A stretch of 64,000 bases of DNA. Source: Halorubrum salinum (GTDB lineage: Archaea; Halobacteriota; Halobacteria; Halobacteriales; Haloferacaceae). Made by a program: the position numbers and the translations under genes. The notes beneath the pieces were generated by a model that saw only the letters and a list, made by a program, of their open reading frames with translations, did no database searches and was not told the origin of the DNA. Location of the stretch: NCBI RefSeq assembly GCF_024494575.1, contig NZ_JANHDO010000005.1, positions 124,001-188,000 on the forward strand, written 5' to 3'. Positions 35,961 through 52,910 of this stretch are shown piece by piece; within the stretch, counting starts at the first letter, position 1; every line of letters begins with the position of its first letter.

Positions 35961-35985
35961 ACCGGGCGGTTCTATCCGAATCCAG

Positions 35986-36027
35986 ATAGCTGTTTCCAGT
36001 TCCTTCGAGGGTAACCGATACAGCTAT
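35986..36027. promoter_or_regulatory. inverted repeat in the HTH/SWIM divergent region
   Basis: ATAGCTGT at 35986-35993 and ACAGCTAT at 36020-36027 form an 8-bp inverted repeat 26 bp apart; the right arm runs into a TATATCC element. A second palindrome CTACGTAG lies near 36037-36044. Plausible operator for the HTH protein. Confidence 0.45.
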
Positions 36028-36132
36028 ATCCTATTCCTACGTAGGTAGTGGTAAGAAGGACCCATCCCTCGGGGCGTATCGGAAACGCCCGGCGGTAGTG
36101 ACGCCGGACGGTGGCCTTCTTGGGGAAGACCA

Positions 36133-36567: not shown

Positions 36568-36704
36568 GCGGGAACCCCGCCGCCTGCGATCCTTTGCTCG
36601 GCATATCCGAACGCCAGAACGGACTATTCTCGCCGGGGTTCTATCGCGATCGAGTACCCAAGTAGTCAGCAATCATTAAGGAACACCGGTCGACACAAGA
36701 GGCT

Positions 36705-39700
36705 ATGCCCGACGCCGCCGCCGTCTCCGAGTCTCTCCACGCCGTCAGTACCCTCTCGGCGGGGGACATGAGTGAGCGCGACGTGGAGAACTTGTTTCTC
36801 GAAACCGGCTTCTACGATGCTCTTGGTTTCGAGGGAACCGGCACCGATCTCCGAAGCGAGTTCACCCTTCCCGACGATCGCCGCCCTGACTACATCACGC
36901 TGGACTCGAACGAGGCCGTCACGACCGTATACGAATTCAAGACCACCGGCGAGTCCCTCCCGCAACACAGGTCACAGCTGTTCGGTTACATGGACTTCCT
37001 CCGGGCGGAACACGGAGTTCTGACGAACGGCGAGGAACTGCGCCTCTACCGACGTGGGGAGGACCGCCCCCGACTCGTCGTTTCTCTCGACGCCGTCACC
37101 GACTCGGACGCCCGCGACCTCGCAAGCGCGCTCCAGAAACGCGAGTTCGACCTCACCGATCCCGACGACGTGAACAACTTTCTCGGGAACCTCGATCCGA
37201 TTCCCTTGAATCAGCAGGCCGAACTCGGGCAGGAACACTTCTTCGACACGTTCCGGCTTGAGGAGGGCAGCCCGTTCGCCGACCTCGTTACGGGCATGAT
37301 GGACCTCCTCGAAGAACTCCGTGACGAACAGGAAGCCAAGTTCGTGAAGGGGGCGTACGACTTTTGGGAGGCGACATACGCGAGCGAGCCCGACGAGGTG
37401 CCAGATTCGTGGGAGCCGTTCATCGGCGGGAACCAGTCGCTCCGGGACTTCATGTTCTGTCTCGAAAGCGGACACGCACTTCTCGCCCGTCTCCTCCTCG
37501 CGAAGGCCACCGAGGATCACGACTTCTTCGCCGGCACCCCGTACGGGGGGATGGACGACTACTTCCGCGGACTCCAAGGGTTCGGCCGGACGATCAATCT
37601 CGACGCGTTCCCTGTCGCCGCGGACAATCTCATTGACGACATGTCGGATCAGCTCGTTGAGGGGCTGTTTCAGGACGACATTTTCGTGTGGTGGACGGAC
37701 GGCTACGCCGAGGAACTGTCTCGGGGGCACGAGACGGGTGCGAGCCAGTTCGAGGAAGTCGCCAAGGAGGCCGGCGGGGTGGACCGGATCAGCGACGCGA
37801 CCCGAGACCGATTCAGCCGGGCGGTAGCGGAGGTGTTCTTCAACGTACTTCGGTTCGACTTCGGGGACGTTGAGGGGGACCTCCTTGGGGACCTGTATCA
37901 GCGATACTTCGACCCGGAGACGCGGAAGGCCCTCGGAGAGTTCTACACGCCGCAACCGGTGATCGACTACATCATGGACGGCGTCGGCTACGAGCGGGGA
38001 GTCTCAAACGAGCGACTCATTGATCCAGCCTGTGGCTCCGGGACGTTCCTCGTGGAAGCCGTCGAGCGGTACATCGCGGACGTGGAGCAGTACGAGGAGG
38101 ACCCGGATTGGAAAGACCACCTACAGGACCTATGTACCCGCCCGCGCGTGGTCGGGCTCGACATACACCCCTTCGCCGTTCTCATGGCGCAGATTCGGTT
38201 TGTCGTGGCAGTTCTCCCCGCGTATCGGAAGGCAAAACAGGAACATCCGGAATACACGATCCGCCGTCTACCCATTTACCGGACCGACACTCTACGGAAC
38301 GAGCGGGAACTAACCGGGACCGACCTCGGTGACGACGGCTCCCGGCAGATGACCTTCGACGCGATGGTCGACGATGAGAAAGACGTGCGGATCCCGGTCC
38401 CGCTCCCAGTCGAAGTGGACGAGGACGAGGTGGATGAGACCGAGGACGGCTTTTTGGTGCGACGCGTTCGGATGCCGCTGTTCGACACCCTCCAAGTTCA
38501 GACGGGCGTGAGCAACTTCGGGGAGTACTTCGCCGCGTTACAGGGCGTTCTCGACACGGTGAAGGACCACATGGCGCTCGCGGAGGAGTTCGGCGGGGAC
38601 TTCGACTGGACCTACCAGAGCGGGCTTGAGGAGCGTATCCACCACCACACCAAGCGCGAGTACGACGGCGTCGAGGAGTTCTTCGCCCCGTACGTGAACG
38701 ACATGCTGGAGAACGTCCGGTATCTCAAGGAGGAACACAACGACGGGCGGCTGTTCAAGATGTTCGAGGACACGGTGCTGGCACTCGTCGTCAAGAACTA
38801 CATGGAATACGACTACGTGGTGGGGAATCCACCGTACGTCCGTATCCAGAACCTCCCGGACAGTCAGAAGGCGATGATGGACACGCTGTACGACGCGACA
38901 ACCGGGAACTACGACATATACTGCCCATTCTACGAGCGCGGTCTCGACTGGCTCGCGGAGGGCACGGGGAAGCTCGGATTCATCACGCCGAACCAGTTCA
39001 TGGTCACGGACTACGGGGAGGGGCTTCGGCGCGTTCTCCTCGAAGACAGCCAGATCGAGGAGGTGTACGACTTCCGGGACTCGGGCGTGTTCGAGGACGC
39101 CACCAACTACCCCGCGGTCGTGATCCTCGAAGACGAGCCCGACCGAGCGGCGCGCGAAGACAACGAAATTCGGTGCGTCCGGGTGAAGGCGAACACGGAC
39201 GGAGAGGACGACCGAGAACTGGACGAGGAGATTGTGACTTCGGTGCGAGAGAACCGCGGCTCCCCGGGCTATTCTGACGAGTTCATCGACGTGTTCGACT
39301 ACCCACAATCGAAGCTCTCGGGAGACGAGTATTGGGCGTTGATGCCTCCCGAGGAGCTACAGGTCTTCGAGAAGCTGGAGAGGCAGGCACCAGCGACGAT
39401 TGGGGACGTGACTGACGCCGTTTTTCAGGGAATCCGAACCAGCGCGAACAAGATCTATGTGGTGGATGTGCTGGATGCCGACAGAATTGAATCGGATGAT
39501 ACTGACGGGGTAGTGACCGTAGTCCCGATCGGAGAGTCACAGGAGTACGAGATCGAGACCGACCTACTTCGCCCGTTCTTGGAAGGAGACGAAGTGAAAC
39601 GATGGCGAGGCGATTGGGGCGGACTCCATGTCGTTCACCCGTACTATGCCGAGGAGACAGACAGCGGCGAAGTTGAGGCCGGGTTGTACTCGCAAGAGTA

Positions 39701-40616
39701 TTTAAGCGAGAACCTTCCGAAAACGTGGCAGTTCTTCCTCGAACATCGAGACGCGCTTGAGGCCCGAGAGAGCGGTCGAAAAGAAGGTAAGGACGACTGG
39801 TACGGCTACATCTATCCGAAGAACCTCGGGAAATTCGAGGCACCCAAGATCATCCAAGCACACATCGCTACCGATGCGACATTTATGATCGACGAGCCGG
39901 GGACTTGGTATTTCACGACCGCGTATGGAGTCCTCTTAGATCCCGACCACCGAAGCCTCACCGAGGAGATCACATGCCAGCTCAACTCGAAAGCCCTCGA
40001 CTTCTATTTCAAGCACATCACGACGGTCAAGATGGGCGGATACTACGAGTATAGATCGCAGTACGTCGAGAAGCTCCCCTGTGTCACCGAGGACACGGCG
40101 GGCGTCTTCGGATCGATGCGCGGGACGGCAGGAGAGATCGTAGACACCATCGACCTCGATAGCCGGACCGACCGCTTCCCGGAGGCATACCTCGGCGACT
40201 ACGACGGTGAACTCGACTACATCAATTACGAGTGGCAGACCCGGCGGTACCCGGTCAATGCCGAAATTCAGGGGGACATGGACGGCGACTTTACCGTACA
40301 GGCGGGGCGTTCTGACGAGATCAACGACCCGGCGATGTACTCCGATGATCGAGACGCTCGCAAGCGCCGCGCTGAGTACGTTCACGCCGCCGTAGACGGT
40401 CGGAGCGTCAAGAGCAGCGAGGAAACGACCATTCCCATTCCCCGGAGCGATGATGGCGTGGTGGAACTACTGGAGCGTCTGGAGACGGATCGTACCGAGG
40501 TCGAGGAGACGAACATAGCCGAACTCGAAGCCGAGATCGATGATGCGGTGTACGATCTGTTCGACCTAACTGCGGAAGAACGCGCCGTCGTGGAAGACTA
40601 CCTCGACGTGTTCTAA
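36705..40616 (+). CDS. single-chain type IIG (Eco57I-like) restriction-modification enzyme
   Basis: 1303 residues. The N-terminal nuclease-like part has PD at 61-62 and EFK at 77-79 (PD-(D/E)xK pattern). A helical linker (about 150-380) follows, then an N6-adenine DNA methyltransferase core: RKALGEFYTPQPVIDYI, SAM motif DPACGSGTFL (about 440-449) and catalytic NPPY (about 708), then ITPNQFMVTDYGEGLR. The rest (about 860-1290) is a probable target-recognition domain with a KFEAPKIIQAH segment. A single polypeptide with all three functions would cut foreign DNA and methylate self. The frame is intact, so it may be active. It stands between the SWIM gene and the 114-aa gene. Confidence 0.85.
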   Translation: MPDAAAVSESLHAVSTLSAGDMSERDVENLFLETGFYDALGFEGTGTDLRSEFTLPDDRRPDYITLDSNEAVTTVYEFKTTGESLPQHRSQLFGYMDFLRAEHGVLTNGEELRLYRRGEDRPRLVVSLDAVTDSDARDLASALQKREFDLTDPDDVNNFLGNLDPIPLNQQAELGQEHFFDTFRLEEGSPFADLVTGMMDLLEELRDEQEAKFVKGAYDFWEATYASEPDEVPDSWEPFIGGNQSLRDFMFCLESGHALLARLLLAKATEDHDFFAGTPYGGMDDYFRGLQGFGRTINLDAFPVAADNLIDDMSDQLVEGLFQDDIFVWWTDGYAEELSRGHETGASQFEEVAKEAGGVDRISDATRDRFSRAVAEVFFNVLRFDFGDVEGDLLGDLYQRYFDPETRKALGEFYTPQPVIDYIMDGVGYERGVSNERLIDPACGSGTFLVEAVERYIADVEQYEEDPDWKDHLQDLCTRPRVVGLDIHPFAVLMAQIRFVVAVLPAYRKAKQEHPEYTIRRLPIYRTDTLRNERELTGTDLGDDGSRQMTFDAMVDDEKDVRIPVPLPVEVDEDEVDETEDGFLVRRVRMPLFDTLQVQTGVSNFGEYFAALQGVLDTVKDHMALAEEFGGDFDWTYQSGLEERIHHHTKREYDGVEEFFAPYVNDMLENVRYLKEEHNDGRLFKMFEDTVLALVVKNYMEYDYVVGNPPYVRIQNLPDSQKAMMDTLYDATTGNYDIYCPFYERGLDWLAEGTGKLGFITPNQFMVTDYGEGLRRVLLEDSQIEEVYDFRDSGVFEDATNYPAVVILEDEPDRAAREDNEIRCVRVKANTDGEDDRELDEEIVTSVRENRGSPGYSDEFIDVFDYPQSKLSGDEYWALMPPEELQVFEKLERQAPATIGDVTDAVFQGIRTSANKIYVVDVLDADRIESDDTDGVVTVVPIGESQEYEIETDLLRPFLEGDEVKRWRGDWGGLHVVHPYYAEETDSGEVEAGLYSQEYLSENLPKTWQFFLEHRDALEARESGRKEGKDDWYGYIYPKNLGKFEAPKIIQAHIATDATFMIDEPGTWYFTTAYGVLLDPDHRSLTEEITCQLNSKALDFYFKHITTVKMGGYYEYRSQYVEKLPCVTEDTAGVFGSMRGTAGEIVDTIDLDSRTDRFPEAYLGDYDGELDYINYEWQTRRYPVNAEIQGDMDGDFTVQAGRSDEINDPAMYSDDRDARKRRAEYVHAAVDGRSVKSSEETTIPIPRSDDGVVELLERLETDRTEVEETNIAELEAEIDDAVYDLFDLTAEERAVVEDYLDVF

Positions 40617-40688
40617 TAGACACCGTCTCGGGTTTAGACAATATCCGGTCCGAAAGAACATCGGGGAACAGACACTACGCGCGTTGAC

Positions 40689-41033
40689 TCAATCCCACTT
40701 TCCGGTGTACTGAACTTCAAAAGCAAAATTCCTAACTAAACGCTCAACCTCTCGTTGTTTTTGCTCGGCGCTTAGGTTCAGCTCTAAGTAATATCCGTTA
40801 ACGAGTTCACGAGGTTGTTTCATTTTCCTCTCTCCATGAGAAGTCTGATCATGTATGATTGGTCGCATTGTACCGGGGATATAGGGAAGGGGTTGAATTT
40901 TCGATTCCAAATTATACTCGCTTAGCAGGTGGTTTACGAGGTCTACGAAGGGATCGACTTGACGTGGCCCTTGGAACTCAATACGCACATCCCCTTCCTC
41001 GATAAGCCGTATTCCGTAGAGTTCCTGAGTCAT
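40689..41033 (-). CDS. hypothetical protein, 114 residues
   Basis: Begins MTQELYGIRLIEEGD and ends VQYTGKWD. AT-rich codon use; no membrane segment or known motif. Predicted alpha/beta by eye. Converges on the restriction-modification gene with a 72-bp gap. A TATATA lies immediately before its ATG (about 41034-41040) but is too near for a typical promoter. It could be an accessory or control protein, or an unrelated passenger. Confidence 0.55.
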   Translation of the reverse strand: MTQELYGIRLIEEGDVRIEFQGPRQVDPFVDLVNHLLSEYNLESKIQPLPYIPGTMRPIIHDQTSHGERKMKQPRELVNGYYLELNLSAEQKQREVERLVRNFAFEVQYTGKWD

Positions 41034-41725
41034 ATATACCAGTTCGTGGAAGGCTCATATCAAACTACTTGACGACGTTTTGTAGCGAACACACTTCCAT
41101 GGCGAGTGTCACGGCGAAAATGTTCACAGCCATCTGTGCGCTCTGCTTAGCCGCCTTTCATTCCCCTACAATATTCAGCCCATCTGATCGAGGGTGTCCC
41201 GTCCGTCACTAACCGAGGCTGTATCTTTCTCCGAAGAAACTACACTCTCCAATATGTGTGATTTGTCCGGGGAGAGAGCGGACATTGCGATAGAACTGCC
41301 GCCGTCAACTTTTCTCCACCCTTGGACCAGCCCTACCCGAATCTACGCGGAATCGTATAGGGCCGCCGTAAAATTCGAGATCGACTCTCGCCCTAACTCT
41401 GTGTCACGCACACAAGTCGCCTGACCGAGTTCTAACCGGTCCCCCGTGGGTCGTGTGGTATCGTCGGGGACGTTCTATCGCAACGAGGGGCCGCGCGAGG
41501 CTGCCAGCGAACGGACCCGCGCCTGAAGATCATCCGGATTCGTTTCCTTTGCTTAGACTCCACCACGGCTCACCCGCGACCCCATTACCGAATCAAATGT
41601 TAACGGCAATCCCGTCCGCGAGACCGAATCAAATGGTAGTTATCAAGGTGCTCCTAAATGCGAAAAGACAAGTATGAGGCCCTCTAACGGTTACTCGTAC
41701 TCCCTCGCAGAACGAAGTGAAGCGA
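41034..41725. other. right end of the tRNA-Thr element, no gene seen
   Basis: About 690 bp. It contains dispersed repeat copy C (41240-41310) and a 13-bp direct repeat ACCGAATCAAATG at 41587-41599 and 41623-41635. Short frames here have no coding character. Confidence 0.4.
41240..41310 (+). repeat. dispersed element repeat, copy C
   Basis: Begins CTACACTCTCCAATATGTGTG and ends AGAACTGCCGCCGTCAAC; aligned with copy B over about 68 bp including TGTCCGG, AGAGAGC and ACATTGCGA blocks. No gene end lies just upstream of it, unlike copies A and B. Confidence 0.7.
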
Positions 41726-41754
41726 GAGCCGGAGGAGGGATTTGAACCCTCGAC
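41726..41754 (-). repeat. attR: 3' end of the intact tRNA-Thr
   Basis: Identical 21-nt core (41726-41746) to attL, followed by CCTCGAC. It is the T-arm and acceptor 3' strand of the tRNA-Thr gene, the usual target of tyrosine integrases. Confidence 0.8.
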
Positions 41755-41799
41755 CTATTCCTTACGAAGGAATCGCTCTGCCAGCTGAGCTACCCCGGC
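41727..41799 (-). tRNA. tRNA-Thr (anticodon CGT)
   Basis: 73 nt on the minus strand. Acceptor GCCGGGG pairs with CTCCGGC (one G-U), D-arm AGCTCAGCTGGCAGAGC, anticodon stem ATTCC/GGAAT with loop TTCGTAA (anticodon CGT, reads ACG), T-arm GAGGGTTCAAATCCCTC, discriminator T. No intron and no encoded CCA. The integrated element begins right at its 3' end. TTATTTT about 27 nt upstream is a possible promoter. Confidence 0.95.
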
Positions 41800-42366
41800 G
41801 CGCATGTGACCATTTCCGAACACGAAAATAAGGGTTCCGAAACGGTGGCGGCGACGAAGTCCAGTCGGTACCGATCGGATCGGTTGTTCCGGTCGGTAGA
41901 CACTCGCACGACATCCATGTGTTTTGAAATACACTATATATTACTACATACGAGTAGGTATCTAGCAAATAGTTCGTATGATATAAGGAAAAAGCATAAA
42001 TATGTGGTTGGGGTTTAATCAGAGTGTGATGACACCGAACGCGTGCCGCGATGGCGGGGATCGACTCCCTCGTCGGTGTGTGCCCGGTCGGAGCCCGTAC
42101 CGGGCGTCGACGACCGCGTCGATCGCATCCCCCACGGCGATCTGACGCGCCACTCTCCCCAGCGAGTGATCCACCACGGCACCTGCGTGGCCAACGCTAC
42201 CGGCGTGTCAAGCGCACAATCGCCTCTGACCTCGACGGTCACGGGGCCGTGGACTCTTGTCATGTGACGGGCCCGACGCCGTTCCGACCCGCGATACTCT
42301 CGGGCGGGCGGCGAATCTGCCTTTGCCACCGCCTCTAGACGCCGGTACCAGTTCCACTGGACCGCA
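41800..42366. other. intergenic region between tRNA-Thr and trm5
   Basis: About 570 bp. AT-rich from about 41925 to 42020 (ACTATATATTACTACATACG), otherwise GC-rich. Short frames at 42043-42338 on both strands show no homology I recognise. Nothing further seen. Confidence 0.4.
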
Positions 42367-43362
42367 CTACGGTTCCGTCCGCGTCAGTCTGACGTCCAAA
42401 CAGACGTTGTGTTCGTGTGGCGCGTACGACCGGACGACCCGTTCGGTCTCTACGTCGACCGCGTACTCGTCTCCGACGGCGGCGCGTATCGCGTCCGCTC
42501 CCGGGCCAAACGGATCGTCCTCGTGTTGGATGTCGTAGTAGTGGATCACGCAGTCGTCGCCGGCCAGCGCGGTCGCCGCGTCGAGGAACTCGTCGGCGGA
42601 GTGCGGGAGGTTCATCACGAGCCGGTCCGCCGTGTCGGCGTACTCCGTCGCCGCCTCGCGGACGTCACCGGCGACCGCGGTCACCCGATCGGCGACGCCG
42701 TTTCGCTCGGCGTTTTCCCGGAGGTATTGGATCGCCGTCTCGTTCAGATCGCAGGCGACGACGTCGGCACCGTGGCTCGCCATCGGAACCGCGTAGGGAC
42801 CGACCCCGGCGAACATGTCGACGACCGTTTCGTCCGCGCCGACCTGCGTCACCACGCGATGACGCTCGGTCGCGAGCCGCGGCGAGAAGTACACCTCGGC
42901 GACATCGAGCGCGAACTCGTGGCCGTACTCGCGGTGGACCGTCTCGGTGCCGTTCCCGGCGAGCACGTCCCACCGCCGAACGCGAAGTTCGCCTTCGATG
43001 GGTGACGCGCGATTGAGCACCGTCTCGCAGGGCAGATCGGAAGCCATCACCGCGTCGGCGATCGCGGCGGCGCGGTCGGGATCGTCCTCGTCGACGATGA
43101 CGATATCTCCCAGTCGCTCTACCGAGGGCTCGAATCCGAGGATCTCGGCCGGCGTCTTCGGTCTGTCGCGCTCGGGGGCGTCGCGCCTCTCGATCCGGCC
43201 TCCGAGGCCGCTCGGAACGCGTTCCGCGTCGGTGACCGGTATGTAGATCGTGTCTCCGTCGACGGTGATCTCGTGGTCCCCGTCGATCACGTCGGCGTCG
43301 GCGAGCAGCTCGCGGACGTGCTCGCCGCGCTCGCGCGCGACCGCGACACATGGAACGCTCAT
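42367..43362 (-). CDS. trm5: tRNA (guanine-N1-)-methyltransferase Trm5
   Basis: Makes m1G37 next to the anticodon, guarding reading frame. 331 residues from ATG 43362 (MSVPCVAVARERGEHV). An N-terminal recognition domain, then a Rossmann methyltransferase with SAM motif DMFAGVGPYAVP, the DLNETAIQYLRENAERNGV segment, and NLPHSADEFLD holding the NPP-like catalytic loop in the Trm5 form. A TTTATG element at about 43388-43394 is 28 nt upstream. It is the downstream neighbour of the chorismate mutase gene if the TA cassette is removed. Confidence 0.93.
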   Translation of the reverse strand: MSVPCVAVARERGEHVRELLADADVIDGDHEITVDGDTIYIPVTDAERVPSGLGGRIERRDAPERDRPKTPAEILGFEPSVERLGDIVIVDEDDPDRAAAIADAVMASDLPCETVLNRASPIEGELRVRRWDVLAGNGTETVHREYGHEFALDVAEVYFSPRLATERHRVVTQVGADETVVDMFAGVGPYAVPMASHGADVVACDLNETAIQYLRENAERNGVADRVTAVAGDVREAATEYADTADRLVMNLPHSADEFLDAATALAGDDCVIHYYDIQHEDDPFGPGADAIRAAVGDEYAVDVETERVVRSYAPHEHNVCLDVRLTRTEP

Positions 43363-43527
43363 TGCTGCAACCAGAGGCGAGGCAACATAAACAGTGACGC
43401 TTCGCTGTCGGGGGCACGCTCGCCACGAGACGTCTCGACGGCAAGGCGTTGTATCCCGCTGAAACCGCTCTCTAGGGGCTCGATCGGTCGATGGCCGAAC
43501 GTAGCGTATCCGGTGTGACCCCCCTAC

Positions 43528-43556
43528 CGACTCTCCCGCTGCTCGACCTTGTTCAG
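43528..43556 (-). repeat. left copy of the chorismate mutase 3' end (29-bp direct repeat)
   Basis: Identical to 44300-44328. On the minus strand it encodes LNKVEQRES, then CGG TAG, so this fragment also ends with Arg and a stop. It has no gene around it and marks the left boundary of the inserted toxin-antitoxin cassette. Confidence 0.85.
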
Positions 43557-43645
43557 GTAGCTGAAATCCATTATATCGAACCCCGAACGAAAGTTGCGCA
43601 TGTCGTGGTGGTCTGTCCCCTCTCAGCTCTTCTCCGAGCGAAAAG

Positions 43646-43652
43646 GATATAG
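43646..43652 (+). promoter_or_regulatory. TATA-box of the antitoxin-toxin operon
   Basis: GATATAG centred about 26 nt before ATG 43676, giving a leaderless antitoxin message. The sequence GATATGAATATGATATGAAT between box and gene has short repeated ATATGA units that could be an autoregulatory operator. Confidence 0.5.
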
Positions 43653-43675
43653 ATATGAATATGATATGAATAAAC

Positions 43676-43942
43676 ATGAGCCAGAGCGAGGAACGTAAGG
43701 TCGGTGAACGGGGGCAAGTCACCCTCCCGAAAGAACTGAGAGAGAAACTGGGTATCCACGGGGGGGACGAGGTACTGGTTCACGAAGAGGACGGGAAAAT
43801 CACCATCGAAAAACCGCTGTCTCGTGAGGAACTCGCTGAGGGATACCGACGACGCGCAGCAGAATCCGAAGCCCTCGCGGAGGAGATGGACGGTGTATCT
43901 CGCGAGGCCGACGAGTACCTCGGTGATGTTCCCAAGTGGTAA
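43676..43942 (+). CDS. AbrB/SpoVT-type antitoxin
   Basis: 88 residues. Swapped-hairpin DNA-binding domain: RKVGERGQVTLPKELREKLGI, GDEVLVHEEDGKITIEKP. The C-terminal half is a long helix (REELAEGYRRRAAESEALAEEM) of the kind that wraps the toxin. The antitoxin probably represses its own promoter as a complex with the toxin. Stop is 3 bp before the mazF start. Confidence 0.9.
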   Translation: MSQSEERKVGERGQVTLPKELREKLGIHGGDEVLVHEEDGKITIEKPLSREELAEGYRRRAAESEALAEEMDGVSREADEYLGDVPKW

Positions 43943-43945
43943 TCG

Positions 43946-44299
43946 ATGGACGTTCGCCGCGGAGACATCGTCATCGTCGAGCTTGACCCGACAGAGGGGT
44001 CAGAGCAACGGGGAACACGACCGTGCCTAGTCGTGCAGAACGACGTTGGGAACGAGAATGCGCCGACGACCATCGTCGTCCCGTTTACGACCTCGCAAGG
44101 AGACGAACTGTACCCGTTCGAGGTACTCGTCTCGGCCGCCGAGTCTCCGCTCCGAGAGGATTCGGTCGCTCTCTGTAGTCAGATTCGCACGGTGTCCATC
44201 GAGCATCGTATTAATACCAGTCTCGGCTCCGTGCCGGCGTCCCGTATGGAGGAAGTGGACGAGGCACTCGAATACAGCCTCGGTCTGATGGAACTCTAA
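43946..44299 (+). CDS. mazF: MazF/PemK-type endoribonuclease toxin
   Basis: 117 residues. PemK-like beta-barrel with MDVRRGDIVIVELDPTEGSEQRGTRPCLVV (short signature RGDIV...GSEQRGTRPCLVVQ), TIVVPFT and DSVALCSQIRTVSIEHRI. These match the conserved RNA-binding and active-site strands of MazF, an mRNA interferase. Its TAA (44297-44299) overlaps the stop of the opposite-strand chorismate mutase gene, so the cassette was inserted with no spare sequence on that side. Confidence 0.92.
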   Translation: MDVRRGDIVIVELDPTEGSEQRGTRPCLVVQNDVGNENAPTTIVVPFTTSQGDELYPFEVLVSAAESPLREDSVALCSQIRTVSIEHRINTSLGSVPASRMEEVDEALEYSLGLMEL

Positions 44300-44589
44300 C
44301 GACTCTCCCGCTGCTCGACCTTGTTCAGTTCGATCAAAAGCCGGAAGATCGCCTTCACGAGGTTGGCGTCGACGTCGAAGCGCTCGGCGTTGTCGCCGGC
44401 GCGCTCCATCACGCGCTCTTCTTGGCCCTCGTCGGTCGTCGGGAGATCGCGCTCCGCTTTCACGGCCGCCACGGTGTCGGCGACGTACGTCCGACGGGCG
44501 ATCAGCTCGACGATCTCTCGGTCGATGTCCTCTATCTCGCGGCGCAGTTCGTCCAGACTCATCTCTTCGGGATTCGGTGTTTCGCTCAT
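44296..44589 (-). CDS. aroQ: chorismate mutase (AroQ type)
   Basis: Converts chorismate to prephenate for Phe/Tyr. 97 residues, all-helical AroQ class: LDELRREIEDIDREIVELIARRTYVADTVAAVK (shortened signature IDREIVELIARRTYVAD), the ERVMERAGDNAE region and a C-terminal helix with IELNKVEQRESR. Catalytic Arg, Lys, Glu and Gln positions are present by pattern. It follows the shikimate kinase gene after 4 bp. Its 3' end is rebuilt across the boundary of the TA cassette. Confidence 0.93.
   Translation of the reverse strand: MSETPNPEEMSLDELRREIEDIDREIVELIARRTYVADTVAAVKAERDLPTTDEGQEERVMERAGDNAERFDVDANLVKAIFRLLIELNKVEQRESR
44300..44328 (-). repeat. right copy of the 29-bp direct repeat (functional aroQ end)
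   Basis: This copy lies inside the intact chorismate mutase gene and supplies its last ten codons (LNKVEQRESR and TAG). Paired with 43528-43556. Confidence 0.85.
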
Positions 44590-44593
44590 TGGT

Positions 44594-45493
44594 TCACTCT
44601 CGGAGAACGGCCGCGCCGTCGTTTCTCGTTGTCGTTCGTCGCAGCGCTCCGGGTCGGTCGTCCCACGCGTCGGCGACAGCGTCGAGGTCGGCGTCGGGGT
44701 CGTCCGGGTCCGCGACGGCGACGACGCTCGGTCCGGTACCCGACAGCGAGACGCCGGACGCGTGCGGCATCGCCTCGACCGCGGGATCGGCGTCGAACCC
44801 GAGCGCGGCGGAGAAGGCGAGGCCGTTGACGGTCATCGCCTCGGCGTACCGCCCGTCGAGGGCGAGATCGGCGACGAGGTCGGCCATGGGCGCGACGGAC
44901 TCACAGCGCGCCACGTCGGCGTCGGCGGTGTAGGCGCGTTCGGGCGGGGTCCACACGAGCACGTCCCAGTCGACCGGGTCGCGCGACCGGAGCTCGTCGC
45001 TCCCGTTGTCGGTGACGGCGACGCCACCGAGCATCGAGGCGGCCGCGTCGTCGAACGCGCCCGTGACGGTGACGCCGGCCTCTCGGGCCGCGCGGACGCC
45101 GAGTCGACAGGCCTCGAGACGCGTGACGTCGACCGACGAGTCGTCGGCGTCGTCGCCGACCTCGAGGCCGAGCGCGTCACAGGTCGCGAGGACGGTCGCG
45201 TTCGCGGCCGCGCTGGAGCTTTTCAGCCCCGCCGCGAGCGGGACGTCGCTGTCGGTGCGGACGGTTCCCCCCTCGCCGCCGCCCCAGCGATCGACCGCGA
45301 GGGCGACGCAGCGCTCGATCAGGTCGGTGTCGGCGTCGGCGTCCTCGGCGATCCGTCCGTCGACGCCGTCGCTGTCGGGGTCGAGCGCGACCGTCGCGCG
45401 CGTCTCGACGTCAATACCGAAGGCCGCGCCGGTGCCGGTCGCGAGCGCGTTCAACACGGTTCCGGCTCCGAGCGCCGCTGCCCGTCCCTCCAT
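44594..45493 (-). CDS. aroK: archaeal shikimate kinase (GHMP family)
   Basis: Phosphorylates shikimate with ATP; archaeal form unrelated to bacterial AroK. 299 residues from ATG 45493 (MEGRAAALGAGTVLNAL). GHMP ATP motif PLAAGLKSSSAAANATVLA (the P-x3-G-L-x-S-S-x-A loop), and a C-terminal SGTGPSVVAVA motif. Context with chorismate mutase confirms the aromatic pathway role. TTTATTT at about 45512-45518 lies about 25 nt upstream; three 18-bp repeats are further upstream. Confidence 0.93.
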   Translation of the reverse strand: MEGRAAALGAGTVLNALATGTGAAFGIDVETRATVALDPDSDGVDGRIAEDADADTDLIERCVALAVDRWGGGEGGTVRTDSDVPLAAGLKSSSAAANATVLATCDALGLEVGDDADDSSVDVTRLEACRLGVRAAREAGVTVTGAFDDAAASMLGGVAVTDNGSDELRSRDPVDWDVLVWTPPERAYTADADVARCESVAPMADLVADLALDGRYAEAMTVNGLAFSAALGFDADPAVEAMPHASGVSLSGTGPSVVAVADPDDPDADLDAVADAWDDRPGALRRTTTRNDGAAVLRE

Positions 45494-45604
45494 GCACTCA
45501 CGGCTCGCGAGCGCAAATAAAGAGGTAGCGATCACGGCGAGTCTCTCACGGCGTCGGTTCGCGGTGGCGGCGCACGTCCGCTCGCTTATGATCGCAATCG
45601 CGAT

Positions 45605-45658
45605 CTCCTGTTGCCATCTCCGCTTCTATTGTTATCCACTCTTCTATTGCTATCTGCC
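45605..45658 (-). repeat. three imperfect 18-bp tandem repeats
   Basis: CTCCTGTTGCCATCTCCG, CTTCTATTGTTATCCACT and CTTCTATTGCTATCTGCC follow directly on each other at 45605, 45623 and 45641 (plus-strand reading). They lie between the divergent aroK and DUF5796 promoters, about 110 bp from each gene start. Confidence 0.7.
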
Positions 45659-45757
45659 GTCTCGCACGCACCCGCGAGTTCGGCCATGCCGGCGTGAGCC
45701 CATCGCTCGTCGGCGCGTCCCGCGTCGCTTTTGAGGGGCGCGCTCGGACCGGTTCGT

Positions 45758-46216
45758 ATGTCAGCGCCTTCGCGAAGCGACGTTCCGCCGACGTCGATCG
45801 GGATCGACCTCCGGGAGGAGGGCGTCGTCGTCGAATACCTCGACGGGCGGACCACCCTCTACCGCGGTGTTCCCGATTCCGTGGAGGGGTCGGTGACGGC
45901 CGGCCCGGGCAAGGAGACGCACGTCCTCGTCACCGATCCGACGGAGACCGAGGGTGTGATGACGTACGTCAACGACTACAACACCGACGACGAGATACTG
46001 GAGGACTCTGGCGTCGGCCGCGTCATGGTCGAGGAAGGGGACCGCGAGGAGGTGTTTCCCGGCGTCATCGTCGGCCGCACGGGACAGCGCAACGAGGTGA
46101 TCGCCGACCCCGAGATCGCCGGCGGGCGGGTGTTCGTCTTCGTCGAAGACGGCTGGACGGAGGGGAGCTACGAGATCGTCGAGGGGCCCGAGGACGGACT
46201 CGACGCACACCGGTGA
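45758..46216 (+). CDS. DUF5796 family haloarchaeal protein
   Basis: 152 residues from ATG 45758 (MSAPSRSDVPPTSIGIDL). The stretch VVVEYLDGRTTLYRGVP, ETHVLVTDPTETEGVM and VNDYNTDDEILEDSGVGRVM matches, from memory, a small beta-rich family restricted to haloarchaea. Function unknown. No membrane segment. A GCTTTTGAGG box lies about 28 nt upstream. Confidence 0.82.
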   Translation: MSAPSRSDVPPTSIGIDLREEGVVVEYLDGRTTLYRGVPDSVEGSVTAGPGKETHVLVTDPTETEGVMTYVNDYNTDDEILEDSGVGRVMVEEGDREEVFPGVIVGRTGQRNEVIADPEIAGGRVFVFVEDGWTEGSYEIVEGPEDGLDAHR

Positions 46217-46363
46217 GCCGCCGGAGGGAGACCCGTGCGGTCCGAGAAGAGACCTGCGTGATCCGAGAAGAGACTCGGAGACCACCGGGACGACGAGAAC
46301 CATCGGTCGCCGATCGGCGAGAACGATCGACAGACGAAAGTCGCGTCGGCGCCGACGAAACGT

Positions 46364-46750
46364 ATGAGCGACGCCGACGAGACGGCGGCGGACACGGACG
46401 AGGCCGAACCGGAGACCGACCGCGACGAGGTCGTTCGGGCGAGCGACATCGGCGGCGAGGGGCCGCCGGTCGAGGAGAAGCCGTACAAGATCGTCTTTGA
46501 AGCCAACAAGTGCTTCGGGGCGGGCAAGTGTGCGGAGGTCGCGGACAACTGGGTGATGGACATCCAGAGCGGCATGGCGAAGCCGCGGTCGTACTACATC
46601 GGCGAGGACGAACTCGACGAGAACATCCGGGCCGCGGAGGTGTGTCCCGCGAAGAAAGAACAGGGCGTGATTCACGTCGTCGACCGGCGGACGGACGAGG
46701 AGATCGCACCCGATCCGCACGGCGACGGGACGCTCTCGGTCGACTGGTAG
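46364..46750 (+). CDS. ferredoxin-like iron-sulfur protein
   Basis: 128 residues. After an acidic N-terminus of about 40 residues come FEANKCFGAGKCAEVADN and, later, RAAEVCPAKKEQGVIHVVD. The CxxxxxC and C-P residues give three visible cysteines, fewer than a classic 4Fe-4S ferredoxin, so the cluster may be 3Fe-4S or use another ligand. The fold reads like ferredoxin (4Fe-4S single-cluster type, ferredoxin-1/ P450-like). Role is electron transfer, partner unknown. Followed 136 bp downstream by tRNA-Leu. Confidence 0.75.
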   Translation: MSDADETAADTDEAEPETDRDEVVRASDIGGEGPPVEEKPYKIVFEANKCFGAGKCAEVADNWVMDIQSGMAKPRSYYIGEDELDENIRAAEVCPAKKEQGVIHVVDRRTDEEIAPDPHGDGTLSVDW

Positions 46751-46886
46751 GTCACCGACACGTCGTCGCCCACATCTCGGACGCACGTGGATCGCTGTCT
46801 GTGGATCGACATCCGTGGACCGCCCCGCGGATCGCGGCCCGATCATTCGAAAGGGGTTTGACTCCGCCGCTTGAACCCGGATCTGC

Positions 46887-46971
46887 GCGGGGGTGGCTGA
46901 GCCTGGCCAAAAGCGGCGGACTTAAGATCCGCTCCTGTAGAGGTTCGAGGGTTCGAATCCCTTCCCCCGCA
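46887..46971 (+). tRNA. tRNA-Leu (anticodon TAA)
   Basis: 85-nt type II tRNA: acceptor GCGGGGG/CCCCCGC, anticodon stem GCGGA/TCCGC with loop CTTAAGA (anticodon TAA, reads UUA), long variable arm CTCCTGTAGAG, T-arm GAGGGTTCGAATCCCTT, discriminator A. No intron or encoded CCA. Confidence 0.95.
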
Positions 46972-47133
46972 TGCCTGCGGCGCTCACACCTCGTGAGCGC
47001 CGCGGCCGGGCTGGTAGGGACTCGAATCGGGGAGCGGAAAGTGAGAGAGCCGCGACGCGGACCGGGCGTGTTCGCGGTGGGGTATCGGAGTCGAATCCGG
47101 AGGTATTTGTCCGCCGCTCGCGTCCGATGGGCC

Positions 47134-48495
47134 ATGCGAACGCTCGTCTTCGACGGCCGAACCGGTGCCGCCGGCGACATGATCTGCGCCGCGCTGATCG
47201 CGGCCGGCGCTGACCCGGCCGTGCTCGCCCCCGTCTCGAAGCGGCTGCCGGTCCGGTACGAGGTTGGCGAGACGACCCGAAACGGGATACGCGCGACGAC
47301 CGTGGACGTGCTCCTCGACGGGCCGAGAGACGATATCGAGCCGTCGAAGGGACACGACGACCACGACCACGACGACCACGGACACGGCCACGACCACGAC
47401 GACCACGGACACGACCACGACCACGGCCACGACCACGACCACGACCACGCCGAGGGGGCCGGAGTCACTCGGAGTTATTCCGAGGTAGTGGCGCTCGTCG
47501 AGTCGATGGATCTCTCCGGATCTGTCGAATCGACGGCGCTCGACGCGTTCGAGCGACTCGGCCGCGCCGAGGCCTCGGTCCACGGCACGGACCTCCACGA
47601 GACGCACTTCCACGAGGTCGGCGCGGACGACGCGATCGCCGACGTCGTCGGCGCGGCGCTCCTCCTCGACGACCTCGACCCGCACCGCGTCGTCACCACC
47701 CCGGTCGCCGCCGGGCGCGGCGAGGTGGCGATGACACACGGAGTCTATCCGGTCCCTACCCCGGCGACGGCGGAGATCGCGGCTCAGGCCGACTACGCGG
47801 TTCGCGGCGGCCCCGTCGACGCCGAACTTCTGACTCCCACGGGCGCGGCGATCCTCGGTGCGGTCGCCGAGGGCGTCGATTCGGTGCCGGACCTCGCGCT
47901 CGACGGGGTCGGGTACGGTGCCGGCGACGCGACGTTCCCCGAGCATCCGAACGTGCTCCGCGTCCTCGTCGGCGACGGAAGAGGTCGCGCCGCTGGGGAC
48001 GAGCGAGACCGAGACGCCGGCGGACTCGTCCGCGACGACGTCGCCGTCCTCGAAACGAACCTCGACGACGCCACGCCGGAGGTGCTCGGCGGGCTCCAAG
48101 AGACGCTCTCGCGGGCGGGTGCGCGAGACGTGACGGTCGTCCCGACGACGATGAAGAAATCGCGGCCCGGCCACCTCGTGAAGGTGATCTGTCGCCCGGC
48201 CGACGCCGAGGCGGTCGCGGAGGCGCTCGCCCGCGAGACGGGGACGCTCGGCGTCCGACAGTCGGGAGCGAGCCACCGCTGGATCGCCGATCGCGAGTTC
48301 GAAACGGCGACGATCTCTCTCGACGGCGCGGACCACGAGGTGTCGGTGAAGGTGGCGTCGACGGCCGACGGCGAGGTCTACGACGTCAGCGCCGAGTACG
48401 ACGACGCGGCCGCGGTCGCGGCGGAGACCGGACTCGCTGTGCGGGAGGTGCTCCGCCGCGCGGAAGCGCAGGTCCGCGCGCCGATAGACGGGTGA
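47134..48495 (+). CDS. larC: nickel insertion/ pincer cofactor protein LarC
   Basis: LarC is known to insert nickel into the pyridinium-3,5-bisthiocarboxylate pincer cofactor of lactate racemase. 453 residues starting [18 protein letters not shown]. The N-terminal GxxGDM motif is intact; a His/Asp tract (about residues 70-108) with more than 15 His is a probable Ni store. Conserved parts resume with [24 protein letters not shown] and [13 protein letters not shown]. Neither LarB, LarE nor a racemase is near, so it may serve a pathway encoded elsewhere. ATG 47134 is supported by a GTATTTG element about 28 nt upstream. Confidence 0.92.
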
Positions 48496-48601
48496 CCGCG
48501 ACGGAGATTACGGACGAGACGACCCAGCGCGTCGGGTTCTGTCGAGGCGAGACGACAGGCCTATGACGGCCGCCCGACCAGTGGGACGTAACTCAGTCTC
48601 C

Positions 48602-49906
48602 ATGATAGAGCGTATCCACACGTCGGACGTCGAACCGGACGCGGACGAGGTCGCCATCGCCGGCCACGTTCACGAGATCCGCGATTTAGGCGGGCTGGTT
48701 TTCCTCATCGTACGCGACCGTGAGGGGCTCATCCAGATAGTCTTCAAAGAGGAGCGGGAGCCGGACCTGTTCGAGGCGGTCCAAGACGTCGGAGCCGAAG
48801 ACGTCGTTCGCGTCGTCGGCGAGCCGCTGGAGAGCGACCAGGCGCCAGGCGGCGTCGAGATCGCGCCGACCGAGTACGAAGTCATCGACGAGGCGGGCTC
48901 GCCGCTGCCGCTCGAGATCTCGAAAGACATCGAGGTCGACCTCTCCACCCGGCTCGATAACCGCGCGCTCGACCTCCGGAAACCGGAGACGCTCGCCGTG
49001 TTCACCCTGCGCTCGAAGCTGATCACGGCGATGGAAGAGTGGTTCGACGACGAGGGGTTCGTCGACATCAAGACGCCGCTCATCTCGAAGGGCGGAGCCG
49101 AGGGAGGCGCGGAGCTGTTCCCGATCCTCTATTACAACCAAGACGCGTTCCTCTCACAGAGCCCGCAGCTGTACAAGCAGATGCTCATGGCCTCCGGCTA
49201 CGAGGCAGTCTACGAGACCGGCACCGCGTTCCGCGCCGAGGACTTCGCGACCTCACGGCACGTCTCCGAGATCGCGATGTTCGACGTCGAACTCGCGTAC
49301 ATCGACGACCACGACGACGTGATGGACGTCCAAGAGGAGTCGCTCCGCTACGCGCTTCGCGCGGTCGCAGAGGACGCCGAGCGCGAACTGGACTTACTCG
49401 ACGTCGACCTCGAGGTGCCAGAAGACGACTTTCCGCGGGTCACCTTCGAGGAGGCGCTCGACATCCTCGAAACCGAGTACGGCCACTTCCCGGACGACCC
49501 GACCGACCTCGACACGAAGGGTGAGAAGCTGCTCGGCGAGCATTTCGAGGAGCAGGGACACCCCGCCTTCTTCGTCGTCGGGTACCCCGACGAGAAGTTC
49601 TACTACATGCAGGACGTCGACGAAGACGACATCGCGTCTCGGAAGTTCGATCTGATCTACAAGGGACAGGAGTTGTCGTCGGGCGGGCAGCGTGAACACG
49701 ACGTCGATCGGATGGTCGAGGTCATGGAAGAGGAGGGCGTCGAGACCGCCAACTTCGAGTTCTACATCGAGGCGCTGAGCTACGGCACGCCGCCGCACGG
49801 GGGCTACGGGCTCGGTATCGACCGACTGGTTCAGAAGGTCGCCGGGCTCTCGAACATCAAAGAGGCGATCATGTTCCCGCGGGACCCGAACCGTTTAGAA
49901 CCGTAG
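48602..49906 (+). CDS. aspS: aspartyl-tRNA synthetase (archaeal type)
   Basis: Class II synthetase, 434 residues from ATG 48602 ([15 protein letters not shown]). OB-fold anticodon-binding domain (about 1-100), then the catalytic domain with motif 1 [17 protein letters not shown], motif 2 [15 protein letters not shown] and motif 3 [11 protein letters not shown]. Archaeal AspRS of this type may be non-discriminating and also charge tRNA-Asn when a GatCAB amidotransferase exists; this cannot be judged here. The upstream ATG at 48563 would add a 13-residue extension without homology. Confidence 0.96.
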
Positions 49907-49958
49907 AGCGCGCCGTCGCTGCCGGCAGGGAGTCCGCGTATCGGCGTACAACCGCCTT

Positions 49959-50237
49959 TCAGATCTTGTTTTCGGCGTCGTCGGCGAGTTCTTTCATCCG
50001 CTTTCCGACGCGGCCCGCAGGCGAGAACTCGTCTTCGCTCATCGCGTTCGCGAGGGCGTTGCCGAGCACGAACACGGCGTGTTTGTGCTCGCTCTTCGAC
50101 TTGTGGACGTGCGACGGGTCGACGTCGAGTTCGTCGTACGGATCGAAAAGCGAGCCGTCGACCGTCTCGTGGTCGCGGAAGTGCTCCATTATCGTCACCA
50201 TCTGTTCGTGAAGTTCGAGCAGCTCGTCTTTGTGCAT
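49959..50237 (-). CDS. UPF0058 family protein
   Basis: 92 residues: MHKDELLELHEQMVTIMEHF start, HVHKSKSEHKHAVFVLG and SPAGRVGKRMKELADDAENK. Small helical archaeal family, several His in HVHKSKSEHKHAV suggest metal contact. Function unknown. Converges on aspS, gap 52 bp. Confidence 0.87.
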   Translation of the reverse strand: MHKDELLELHEQMVTIMEHFRDHETVDGSLFDPYDELDVDPSHVHKSKSEHKHAVFVLGNALANAMSEDEFSPAGRVGKRMKELADDAENKI

Positions 50238-50356
50238 ACCCGCAGATACGGGTCCTCGCCCCTTTAAGCGTTGTTGAGGGGGGTACGCACGGTTTTGTCG
50301 GTGCGATAGCGGTCGGATATCGCCGCGTCGGCGAGACCGGGCCCGACCGCCGCCGG

Positions 50357-50572
50357 TCAGAACACGTACTCGTCTTCGTGGCCCATCATCCCCTCGTCCT
50401 CGAAGCCACTCGACTCCTCGTCGTCTCGGGGACCGCTGGTTTTGTACGCCTTAATTCCCGTCGACAGGAGTTCTTCGACCGCTTCTTCTCGGTTGAGGAA
50501 CTCCCCCTGCTCCACCATCTGGGCGATCTGCATCTCCAGATGCTCCGGCACGGTTATCTCCACTCGTGGCAT
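50357..50572 (-). CDS. ribbon-helix-helix (CopG-like) DNA-binding protein
   Basis: 71 residues from ATG 50572: PRVEITVPEHLEMQIAQMV, then FLNREEAVEELLSTGIKAY (short signature EAVEELLSTGIKAY) typical of RHH proteins. Acidic flexible C-terminus. TTTATA at about 50598-50605 is about 28 nt upstream and supports this start over ATG 50656. Possible transcription factor or antitoxin-like protein, but no toxin gene adjoins. Confidence 0.82.
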   Translation of the reverse strand: MPRVEITVPEHLEMQIAQMVEQGEFLNREEAVEELLSTGIKAYKTSGPRDDEESSGFEDEGMMGHEDEYVF

Positions 50573-50793
50573 TTCCTGTCCGGGAGTAATGGCAATGGGG
50601 ATATAAATGTGGCGTCGAAGATGCGGGTATAAGAAAACAAAAGTAGAATACTTCAAAAGACTACTTCGAATTCATCTAACTCTATTTCAGAATATGCGTA
50701 TTAGTGAGTGTGTGCGTATGTGTTCGCCGCGTCGGATTGCGCTCTCCGGCCGGGAGCGACACCGATAGGTGCGTACGCCACTGATCGGCACGC

Positions 50794-51402
50794 ATGGCCG
50801 ACACCGACGGCGTGACCGATCTCACGGGGCTCTTTCGAGAGTACGGCGACGACCGGCTCCCGCCCGGACAACGCGAGACCGACCGCTTCCCGGTGCTCTC
50901 GAAGGGCGAGACGCCCGCGTGGGACGCGGACTCGTTCGCCTTCGAGGTGTGGGGTGCCGTCGACGAGCCCCGGTCGTTCTCGCTCGCGGCGTTTCGCGAC
51001 CTCCCCTCTGTCACGCAGCGGCAGGACTTCCACTGTGTCACCGGCTGGAGCAAGTTCGACTGCACGTTCACGGGCGTCGAGTTCGCCGAGATCGCGGCGC
51101 GTGCCGGGCTCGATGACGACGTCTCTCACGTGGTGTTCCACGCGCTCGACGGCTACACGACGAACCTTCCGATAGACGAGTGCACAGAGCCCGGGGTGCT
51201 GTTCGCGTACGGCTACGACGGCGGCGACCTCCCCGCCGACCACGGTGGCCCGATCCGGGTCGTCACTCCCCACAAGTACGCGTACAAGGGCGCGAAGTGG
51301 GTCACGGGCGTGGAGTTTCTCACCGAGAAGACGCTCGGGTACTGGGAGAAGCGCGGGTACAGCGACACGGCGAACCCGTGGGAAGAAGAGCGGTACAGCT
51401 AG
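50794..51402 (+). CDS. sulfite oxidase-like molybdopterin-binding oxidoreductase
   Basis: 202 residues. Oxidoreductase molybdopterin-binding domain (MsrP/YedY-like): the RDLPSVTQRQDFHCVTGWSKFD region with the Mo-ligating Cys (near residue 80), the THxxNLPIDEC-like loop TTNLPIDECT and GPIRVVTPHKYAYKGAKWV. No signal peptide, so a cytoplasmic or loosely associated enzyme is possible. Substrate unknown. AT-rich promoter region lies upstream (about 50640-50720). Confidence 0.87.
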   Translation: MADTDGVTDLTGLFREYGDDRLPPGQRETDRFPVLSKGETPAWDADSFAFEVWGAVDEPRSFSLAAFRDLPSVTQRQDFHCVTGWSKFDCTFTGVEFAEIAARAGLDDDVSHVVFHALDGYTTNLPIDECTEPGVLFAYGYDGGDLPADHGGPIRVVTPHKYAYKGAKWVTGVEFLTEKTLGYWEKRGYSDTANPWEEERYS

Positions 51403-51527
51403 CGGCCGCGTGCGGCACGACGAACCGCACGTCGGCCGGTCGAGTCGGGGATCGTCGCGCCGGTCGACGGGCGGGCGGGTTCCCCCGATAGTCAGGATAA
51501 AGGTTCCTCGGCCCGGAGTTCACGGCA

Positions 51528-52910
51528 ATGGAACAGGCGCGTTCGACGTCGCCGCCGTCGCTCGTCAGCCGCACGACCGCGATCGACGCCCCGACGTTCG
51601 CGGCGGCGTTCGACGCGCTTCCGGCACCGCGGACGACGTGGAACGCACCCGACGACGCGCTGGTGCTCGGGAGCGGGGCGGCCGCGACGCTGACCGGCCG
51701 CGGCCCCGACCGTTTCGCCGAGATCCGCGCCGCCGCCGCCGACCTGTTCGACTCCGGCGACGTCCACGCCGGCACCGAGGCCGCCCGCCCTCGCGTGTTC
51801 GGCGGCTTCGCGTTTCACGCGGGGAGCTGTGACGGCGACCCGTGGAAACCGTTCCCCGAGGCGCGGTTCGTCCTCCCGCGCGTGCAGGTGACGTTCGCCG
51901 ACAACGGCGTCTGGCTGACGGTGAACGCGAACGGGTCGGACGCGTCCGTGGGCGACGTAGAGCGTCGGCTCGAAGCCGAGGCGGATCGACTGTCCGGGCT
52001 CGACGCGGAGACGGAACGGCCGCCGCGTCCCGGGATCGCAGCGAGCCACCGCACCACGAGCCGCGAGGCGTGGCGCTCAGGGGTGGAGGCCGCAGTCGAC
52101 CGGATCCGAGGCGGCGATCTACAGAAGGTCGTTCTCGCGCAGGCGCTCGAAGCGGAGCTTTCCGCGCCGTTCCCGCGCTCGGCGACCCTGGAGCGGCTCG
52201 CGGAGAAGTACCCCGACTGTCACCGGTACTACTTCGAACCCGCGGGCGACGAGCGCGGGAGCGCCTTCTTCGGCGCGACTCCCGAACGGCTGGTCGCGCT
52301 CCGCGGCCGAACGGTGGAGACGGACGCGCTCGCCGGGACCACCGGCCGCGGCGAGACGCCGACGGAAGACGAGTGGCTCGCGCACGAACTCCTCGACGAC
52401 GCGAAGAACGTCCACGAACACGAACTCGTCGCGGAGACGGTCCGCGAGCAGTTGGAGCCGTTCGCCGCGTCCATCTCGGCCGGCGACAGGCGCGTGCGTC
52501 GGCTCGCCACGGTACAGCACCTCCACACGCCGATCACGGCGGAGCTCGACGACGACCGCCACGTCCTCGAACTGGTCGAGGCGCTTCACCCGACACCCGC
52601 GGTCGGGGGACTTCCGCCGGACCGCGCGCTCGACACCATCCGGGAGGCGGAGCCGTTCGATCGCGGGTGGTACGCCGCGCCGGTCGGCTGGATCGACGCC
52701 GCCGGAAACGGCGCGTTCGCGGTCGCGATACGCTCTGCGGTCGCGCGTCCGCGTCGAGCGACGCTCTTCGCCGGCGTGGGTCTCGTCGCCGACTCCGACC
52801 CCGACCGGGAGTGGGACGAGGTGCAACTCAAGTACCGGCCGATCCTCGACGAACTGGAGGACGGAACCGCCGCTCCCGGCGAGGAGACGGGGGCGGCGGA
52901 CGGCGGCTAG
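51528..52910 (+). CDS. menF: isochorismate synthase MenF-like
   Basis: 460 residues. Chorismate-utilizing enzyme: the core GDLQKVVLAQALEAEL, FFGATPERLVALRGRTVETDALAGTTGRG, EHELVAETVREQL and HPTPAVGGLP signatures match MenF/EntC. Makes isochorismate for menaquinone. The usual partners MenD and MenB are not adjacent; the next gene is a convergent PAC2 protein. Salicylate- or anthranilate-type synthases are less likely because the motif pattern follows isochorismate synthases. Confidence 0.9.
   Translation: MEQARSTSPPSLVSRTTAIDAPTFAAAFDALPAPRTTWNAPDDALVLGSGAAATLTGRGPDRFAEIRAAAADLFDSGDVHAGTEAARPRVFGGFAFHAGSCDGDPWKPFPEARFVLPRVQVTFADNGVWLTVNANGSDASVGDVERRLEAEADRLSGLDAETERPPRPGIAASHRTTSREAWRSGVEAAVDRIRGGDLQKVVLAQALEAELSAPFPRSATLERLAEKYPDCHRYYFEPAGDERGSAFFGATPERLVALRGRTVETDALAGTTGRGETPTEDEWLAHELLDDAKNVHEHELVAETVREQLEPFAASISAGDRRVRRLATVQHLHTPITAELDDDRHVLELVEALHPTPAVGGLPPDRALDTIREAEPFDRGWYAAPVGWIDAAGNGAFAVAIRSAVARPRRATLFAGVGLVADSDPDREWDEVQLKYRPILDELEDGTAAPGEETGAADGG

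Follow-up and report, generated by a model that had tools for sequence, protein, structure and literature searches.

SCC composite islands at rlmH/orfX are bounded by direct repeats of the 3' end of a protein gene and consist of tandem elements, some of which have no recombinase. The arrays described here, which sit at the 3' end of the haloarchaeal chorismate mutase gene aroQ, are like them in their protein-gene repeats, their tandem layout and their partial lack of recombinases, whereas SCC elements are large resistance islands of Staphylococcus with serine recombinases. Toxin-antitoxin (TA) cassettes are also frequent in large integrons.

Archaeal integron gene cassettes (PMC9668308) form arrays of small mobile cassettes as well, each bounded by a recombination site. 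The aroQ arrays differ in that their recombination site is where the coding sequence of a housekeeping gene ends, not an attI/attC site, and their units are complete TA operons that include the upstream regions. No IntI was found beside the aroQ arrays, where the only adjoining integrases are copies or fragments of the recombinase that we call IntQ. The accretion of recombinase-less, att-flanked islands (CIMEs) is known (PMC5704250), and in the ICESt1 family and others such islands are stacked at one gene end near integrase-bearing relatives. The cassette studied here has attL/attR-like direct repeats, as CIMEs do, but aroQ units are minimal (0.7-1.5 kb), their cargo is nearly always one TA pair, and their site is the haloarchaeal aroQ. 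Thaumarchaeota have integrative elements in protein genes that undergo site-specific integration with gene reconstitution (PMC6563490); these and casposons share with aroQ the 3' protein-gene integration, the replaced stop codon and the capacity for tandem insertion. They are large, however, and many have their own integrase or Cas1, whereas the aroQ units are mostly without a recombinase and form multi-cargo arrays. Acinetobacter dif modules (PMC6449649, PMC13141974) are likewise short TA modules with sites of about 28 bp and a recombinase acting in trans, but they reside on plasmids and use XerCD, whereas the aroQ sites are chromosomal copies of a gene end in one orientation.

Open-access full texts yielded nothing relevant on chorismate mutase as an archaeal attachment site or on haloarchaeal TA cassettes at integration sites, although subscription literature may hold an earlier description. 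The aroQ arrays are a fresh variety of tandem att-flanked islands.

Results

The window, the whole stretch of 64,000 nucleotides that was analysed, comes from the 2.7-Mb genome of Halorubrum salinum, a member of a genus represented here by 52 species genomes. Its aroQ is followed by a convergent MazE/AbrB and MazF/PemK pair, then by an untranslated copy of the aroQ end, and then by trm5 (Table 1). The 29-bp repeat enclosing the pair (CGACTCTCCCGCTGCTCGACCTTGTTCAG) occurs as two exact copies, with no further copy in the window at up to 3 mismatches; chance matches numbered 0 in 100 shuffles (expected count 0), and similarity between the copies reaches 43 nt at 88%. On the minus strand both read CTG AAC AAG GTC GAG CAG CGG GAG AGT CGN TAG, or LNKVEQRESR and a stop, just as a preliminary description of this DNA had reported. 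It had also correctly described the tail-to-tail overlap of the MazF stop (TAA, 44297-44299) with that of the mutase (44296-44298), and the absence of an integrase: the only ORFs of the cassette are MazE and MazF, with no recombinase or transfer gene among them. Pfam supports both members, so that a MazF-family toxin adjoins its antitoxin as in type II MazEF systems. The island of about 770 bp that was envisaged is a real unit of 772 bp, but the scale was underestimated, for it is a single cassette in a class-wide system of arrays.

Table 1. Features of the aroQ-trm5 region, in window coordinates
Feature	Coordinates	Strand	Evidence and remarks
trm5, native downstream neighbour of aroQ here	42367..43362	-	NCBIfam Trm5b 5e-68
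Distal 29-bp repeat, trm5 side: untranslated old aroQ end (LNKVEQRESR, stop)	43528..43556	-	exact match
Cassette right-end motif, minus strand CGATATAATGGATTTCAGCTAC	43557..43578	-	conserved next to the distal repeat in cassettes whose cargo is unrelated
Cassette unit, 772 bp (repeat-to-repeat spacing)	43557..44328		95% identical cassette in L068
MazE/AbrB-type antitoxin, 88 aa	43676..43942	+	Pfam MazE_antitoxin 1.7e-15
MazF/PemK-type toxin (117 aa), transcribed towards aroQ	43946..44299	+	Pfam PemK_toxin 4.6e-33
Chorismate mutase gene aroQ (97 aa), whose 3' end is targeted by integration	44296..44589	-	ORF; NCBIfam chorismate mutase models, best 7.7e-20, slightly below curated cut-offs
Proximal 29-bp repeat: functional aroQ 3' end	44300..44328	-	exact match

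The whole region has a near-identical copy on another contig of the same assembly (window 35603-52558 against L057, G000:C3:383000-400000; at least 17 kb, 99.9-100% identical, inverted), and the repeat is therefore present four times in the genome. This copy is either a true segmental duplication or the product of redundant assembly contigs (contamination estimate 3.2%).

All 52 Halorubrum genomes have aroQ, and the DNA downstream of it was taken from every one (only 242 bp long in L009). A TA gene, as matched to the TA types defined here, lies within 4 kb downstream in 36/52 genomes, and at least one additional aroQ-end repeat lies within 4 kb of aroQ in 23/52; the second repeat of G017 (L088), 5.6 kb off, falls outside this limit. 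Arrays comprise one to three cassettes (three consecutive units, the maximum, in L087), typically of 0.7-1.5 kb and mainly of the MazF or VapC/PIN kind, with direct copies of the aroQ end between them. These repeats have one orientation throughout, and their usual spacings are 711-714, 733-737, 772-773, 811, 844, 883, 1077-1090 and 1232-1235 bp. The genome search that the preliminary description had proposed thus finds repeat copies throughout the Halorubrum aroQ arrays, and across the genus the pattern is practically confined to these arrays or to displaced array ends (reversed-pattern control, 0). Its suggestion that the repeat might instead be a shared promoter element was rejected, because what is repeated is the end of the aroQ coding sequence, copies of which occur only in such places.

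Several types of cassette occur. Alongside the MazE/AbrB-MazF cassette of the window there are cassettes with a second MazF and a small partner, a PIN/VapC with a short partner, a PIN_9-like toxin with a weakly RHH-like partner, a small putative antitoxin with a PIN-like fragment, and an AbrB-like protein with a PIN, some of the antitoxins being assigned solely from their position and weak profile hits. An exception is L080, where, judging from sequence, an acetyltransferase-like gene accompanies MazF. Of the genus matches to the window MazF at 77% identity or more, 11/12 are inside the aroQ array, and the MazFs of the 713-bp type are likewise at aroQ, bar one on a contig with a detached array. 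The third MazF group, with a frame of 121 aa, does not occur at aroQ. Cassettes with unrelated cargo have a common right-end motif, ATGGATTTCAGCTACC, then TGAACAAGG. The downstream neighbours beyond the array or aroQ vary between genomes and species.

Several loci depart from this plan. In L079 (G031) an IS200/IS605-like pair (TnpA- and TnpB-like) lies inside a PIN cassette of the 1235-bp type at aroQ, and in L088 (G017) the two aroQ-end repeats enclose a 5.6-kb unit (0-5588 downstream of aroQ) that has no TA pair and includes a heavy-metal/copper-ATPase-like gene and a halocyanin-like protein; both assignments were made from sequence. Detached array ends or native aroQ flanks were seen in L170 (G051:C66), L169 (G043:C150), L171 (G033:C24) and L218/L254 (G135), either on separate contigs or, inverted, at a distance of about 765 kb, which suggests that arrays are places of chromosome rearrangement or contig breaks. 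Relatives of the PIN_9-like toxin at 72-75% (L325, L327, L328, L329) are located away from aroQ. An exact 14-mer check gave no obvious flanking direct repeats around them, and they may use other sites.

The preliminary description had called for a comparison of aroQ-trm5 junctions in relatives, on the understanding that identical TA genes in all of them would speak against an insertion. Empty sites do exist. In L064 the flank past the final repeat aligns to L073 right behind its aroQ stop (88.5% over 495 nt), and the same holds for the arrays of L076, L077 and L081 against the empty genomes L060, L061, L067 and L093. The nearest syntenic relative, G018 (L058), is the sole other genome with the aroQ-trm5 order and has a PIN/VapC cassette at that junction where the window has MazEF. 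Cargo therefore varies and some sites are vacant, and the possibility of identical TA genes in all relatives is rejected. Together with integrase elements at the same site that have the same right end (see below), these empty sites and this other cargo make integration at a protein-gene end, mobilised in trans, the best reading, as had been proposed.

The system extends well beyond the genus. The joint pattern of right-end motif and repeat occurs in 13/28 genera and 44/170 genomes of the family (reversed control, 0), where non-Halorubrum genomes were mostly picked via the motif and counts among them are no frequency estimate; most of the loci fetched have aroQ just upstream, often with known TA types between. 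An exact 21-base version of this joint pattern matches 25 records in the species-genome collection, 22 of them haloarchaeal and 3 bacterial, the latter looking like chance. Haloarchaeal matches include Halorussus, Haloarcula, Haladaptatus, Natronomonas, Halovenus, Halovivax, Halostella, Natronorubrum, Halorientalis, Halogranum, Haloparvum and others.

Where the same cassettes occur at aroQ in different genera, their DNA is 92-94% identical, as against 82-86% for aroQ, and the window cassette is 95-97% identical to cassettes of two congeners whose aroQ is 88-89% identical. The cassettes have therefore moved horizontally. The same figures make it hardly credible that these are ancient resident cassettes exchanged solely by homologous recombination or unequal crossing-over between repeats, with no dedicated recombinase. 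Repeats can certainly recombine, haloarchaea swap long tracts, and some arrays show rearrangement; yet cassettes in different genera would not be expected to outstrip their flanking aroQ in identity, one right end is found across unrelated cargo, and the post-array neighbours differ between genomes. Homologous exchange, which the preliminary description had offered as an alternative, is possible for local reshuffling, but dedicated integration is preferred overall.

A candidate for such a dedicated enzyme is found at the site itself. Two elements of 37-38 kb, from different genera, are located at the aroQ 3' end, one in G006 (Halorubrum californiense) and one in G103. In G006 the aroQ tail is recoded and ends LNKVEQRHNRKTD before the stop, while the next aroQ-end copy lies 38 kb off, preceded by TATTATGGATTTCAGCTACC, which is the right end of the TA cassettes, and followed by a MazF cassette. 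The recoded tail of G103 ends LNKVEQRDNRKTE before the stop, with the right end 37.5 kb off. This change of the gene's tail has the anatomy of site-specific integration with gene reconstitution. The G006 element encodes a tyrosine recombinase of 379 aa (Pfam Phage_integrase 2e-9) 1.2 kb inside its left end, and that of G103 is 50-52% identical, in the same position and with the same two neighbour genes. We use the name IntQ for this left-end recombinase, which has the conserved tyrosine-recombinase motifs TGVRSxEL, PHYxRHW and HRYIHxxY; its next-closest relatives across the 170 family genomes reach at most 41% identity.

Small cassettes and these integrase-bearing elements have att-like sites in common, although their left ends are unlike each other, and no small cassette carries IntQ. 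Intact IntQ is at aroQ in only 2/170 family genomes, which means that nearly all cassettes sit without it. In all aroQ regions examined, an integrase profile matched near aroQ only in L094, L253 and L260 (G006, G103 and G073), the last having integrase fragments beside a PIN cassette; L218 also has a match, not at aroQ. On account of this rarity a host enzyme has to be considered, namely that the same site-specific integration is carried out in trans by a host-encoded Xer-like recombinase and that IntQ elements merely happen to use the site as well. A tyrosine recombinase weakly similar to IntQ (28-35%), often in a frame of about 344 aa, is present in nearly every Halorubrum genome, and a 28-29 bp site with TA cargo is reminiscent of dif modules. 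We nonetheless judge this unlikely, since every site is directly oriented in the gene end, the recombinases adjoining aroQ in the regions examined are IntQ copies or fragments only, and the IntQ elements have the cassette right end.

Besides IntQ, the element of G006 encodes a second integrase, which G103 lacks, and a DUF262-like protein. Both elements share a block (L167/L168 against L253/L211) of DUF499, DUF7680, a DUF1156 methyltransferase and a large SNF2-PLD-helicase, 60-90% identical in amino acids and resembling defence genes. No conjugation genes were identified, and neither Cas1 nor DNA polymerase B was found in the window cassette or in Pfam scans of most ORFs of the G006 element. 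Viral contigs contained 0 attP matches, phage records no IntQ, and plasmid records only matches of 24-33% identity to IntQ; no free circle or virus with attP was found among these viral, phage and plasmid records.

The repeats themselves bear on how insertion takes place. Pairs mostly differ, at a median of about 6 of 29 positions, and a minority are near-identical, including those of the window and of L063. Similarity is 23.2 of 29 within genomes and 22.4 between them (p = 0.0002, concentrated at position 10). We do not claim position 10 as a crossover overlap region, as clade structure (LNKA versus LNKV) may explain the correlation. Because copies within a genome are only marginally more similar than copies between genomes, plain target duplication fails for most pairs. 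Moreover, repeat positions 24-29 and the stop codon context are linked to the downstream cassette (permutation p 0.003-0.01), whereas the permutation test found no linkage for positions 9-23. From this difference it appears that each cassette brings the last aroQ codons with it, and the exchange point probably falls within the first 23 bases of the repeat; in the window, the final bases of the proximal repeat and the stop were probably delivered by the cassette. The 29-bp coding duplication of the preliminary description is thus borne out by the exact pair in the window but is not clean in general, the last 6 bases being apparently cassette-borne, and we reject a plain 29-bp duplication as the general rule.

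A transposon- or casposon-like insertion that duplicated a target of about 29 bp, with the copies diverging later, consequently has a slim chance of being correct. The identical or near-identical copies in the window and L063 would fit it, casposons insert at gene ends and may do so in tandem (PMC6563490), and a subset of cassettes has inverted similarity between its ends. This last signal is weak (mean 7.1 of 16 against 6.5 when shuffled), and we rejected it as a transposon signature. Same-genome copies hardly closer than those of different genomes, and final positions that track the cassette, are not what later divergence predicts. In G006 and G103 the elements recode the tail of the gene without duplicating it, and the ORFs of small cassettes include no transposase or Cas1, bar the IS-like insertion in L079.

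Discussion

We propose that an IntQ-type recombinase integrates the TA cassettes, its non-autonomous passengers, site-specifically at the aroQ 3' end, and we put the probability of this reading at roughly 0.7. Under it, the aroQ 3' end would serve as the chromosomal attB for a family of haloarchaeal integrating elements. The element's attP, consisting of the right-end motif and a copy of the aroQ tail, would recombine with the resident aroQ tail, so that aroQ is rejoined to the element-borne tail and the old tail stays on the far side. Because attB would be rebuilt in each round, the next elements could insert at the same place, and a directly oriented array would result. The large elements would supply IntQ as the catalyst. 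Small cassettes, retaining only the ends and the TA pair, would be mobilised by an enzyme supplied in trans, or in cis through accretion with a large element, presumably with cassette excision through a circular intermediate. Once in place, they are likely to be retained for reasons familiar from other TA systems, either because a functional TA pair would stabilise the array against loss by addiction or because it would contribute to phage defence.

A wider proposition is that the aroQ 3' end is a class-wide capture platform analogous to integrons, at which minimal TA cassettes with standard ends dock, are swapped across genera, and are stacked by a trans-acting IntQ-type recombinase. We regard this as evenly balanced between true and false. 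What lies at the aroQ 3' end, an array system of TA cassettes that is site-specific, class-wide and accompanied by a candidate recombinase, is real.

The aroQ arrays bear on the question of how chromosomal TA genes spread and persist. A mobile unit could hardly be smaller than theirs, a TA pair with recombination ends, and it can be traced across many genera at one site. That site offers empty, filled and multiply filled versions together with a candidate recombinase. The arrays also show in aroQ a housekeeping gene with a C-terminus that mobile DNA rewrites again and again.
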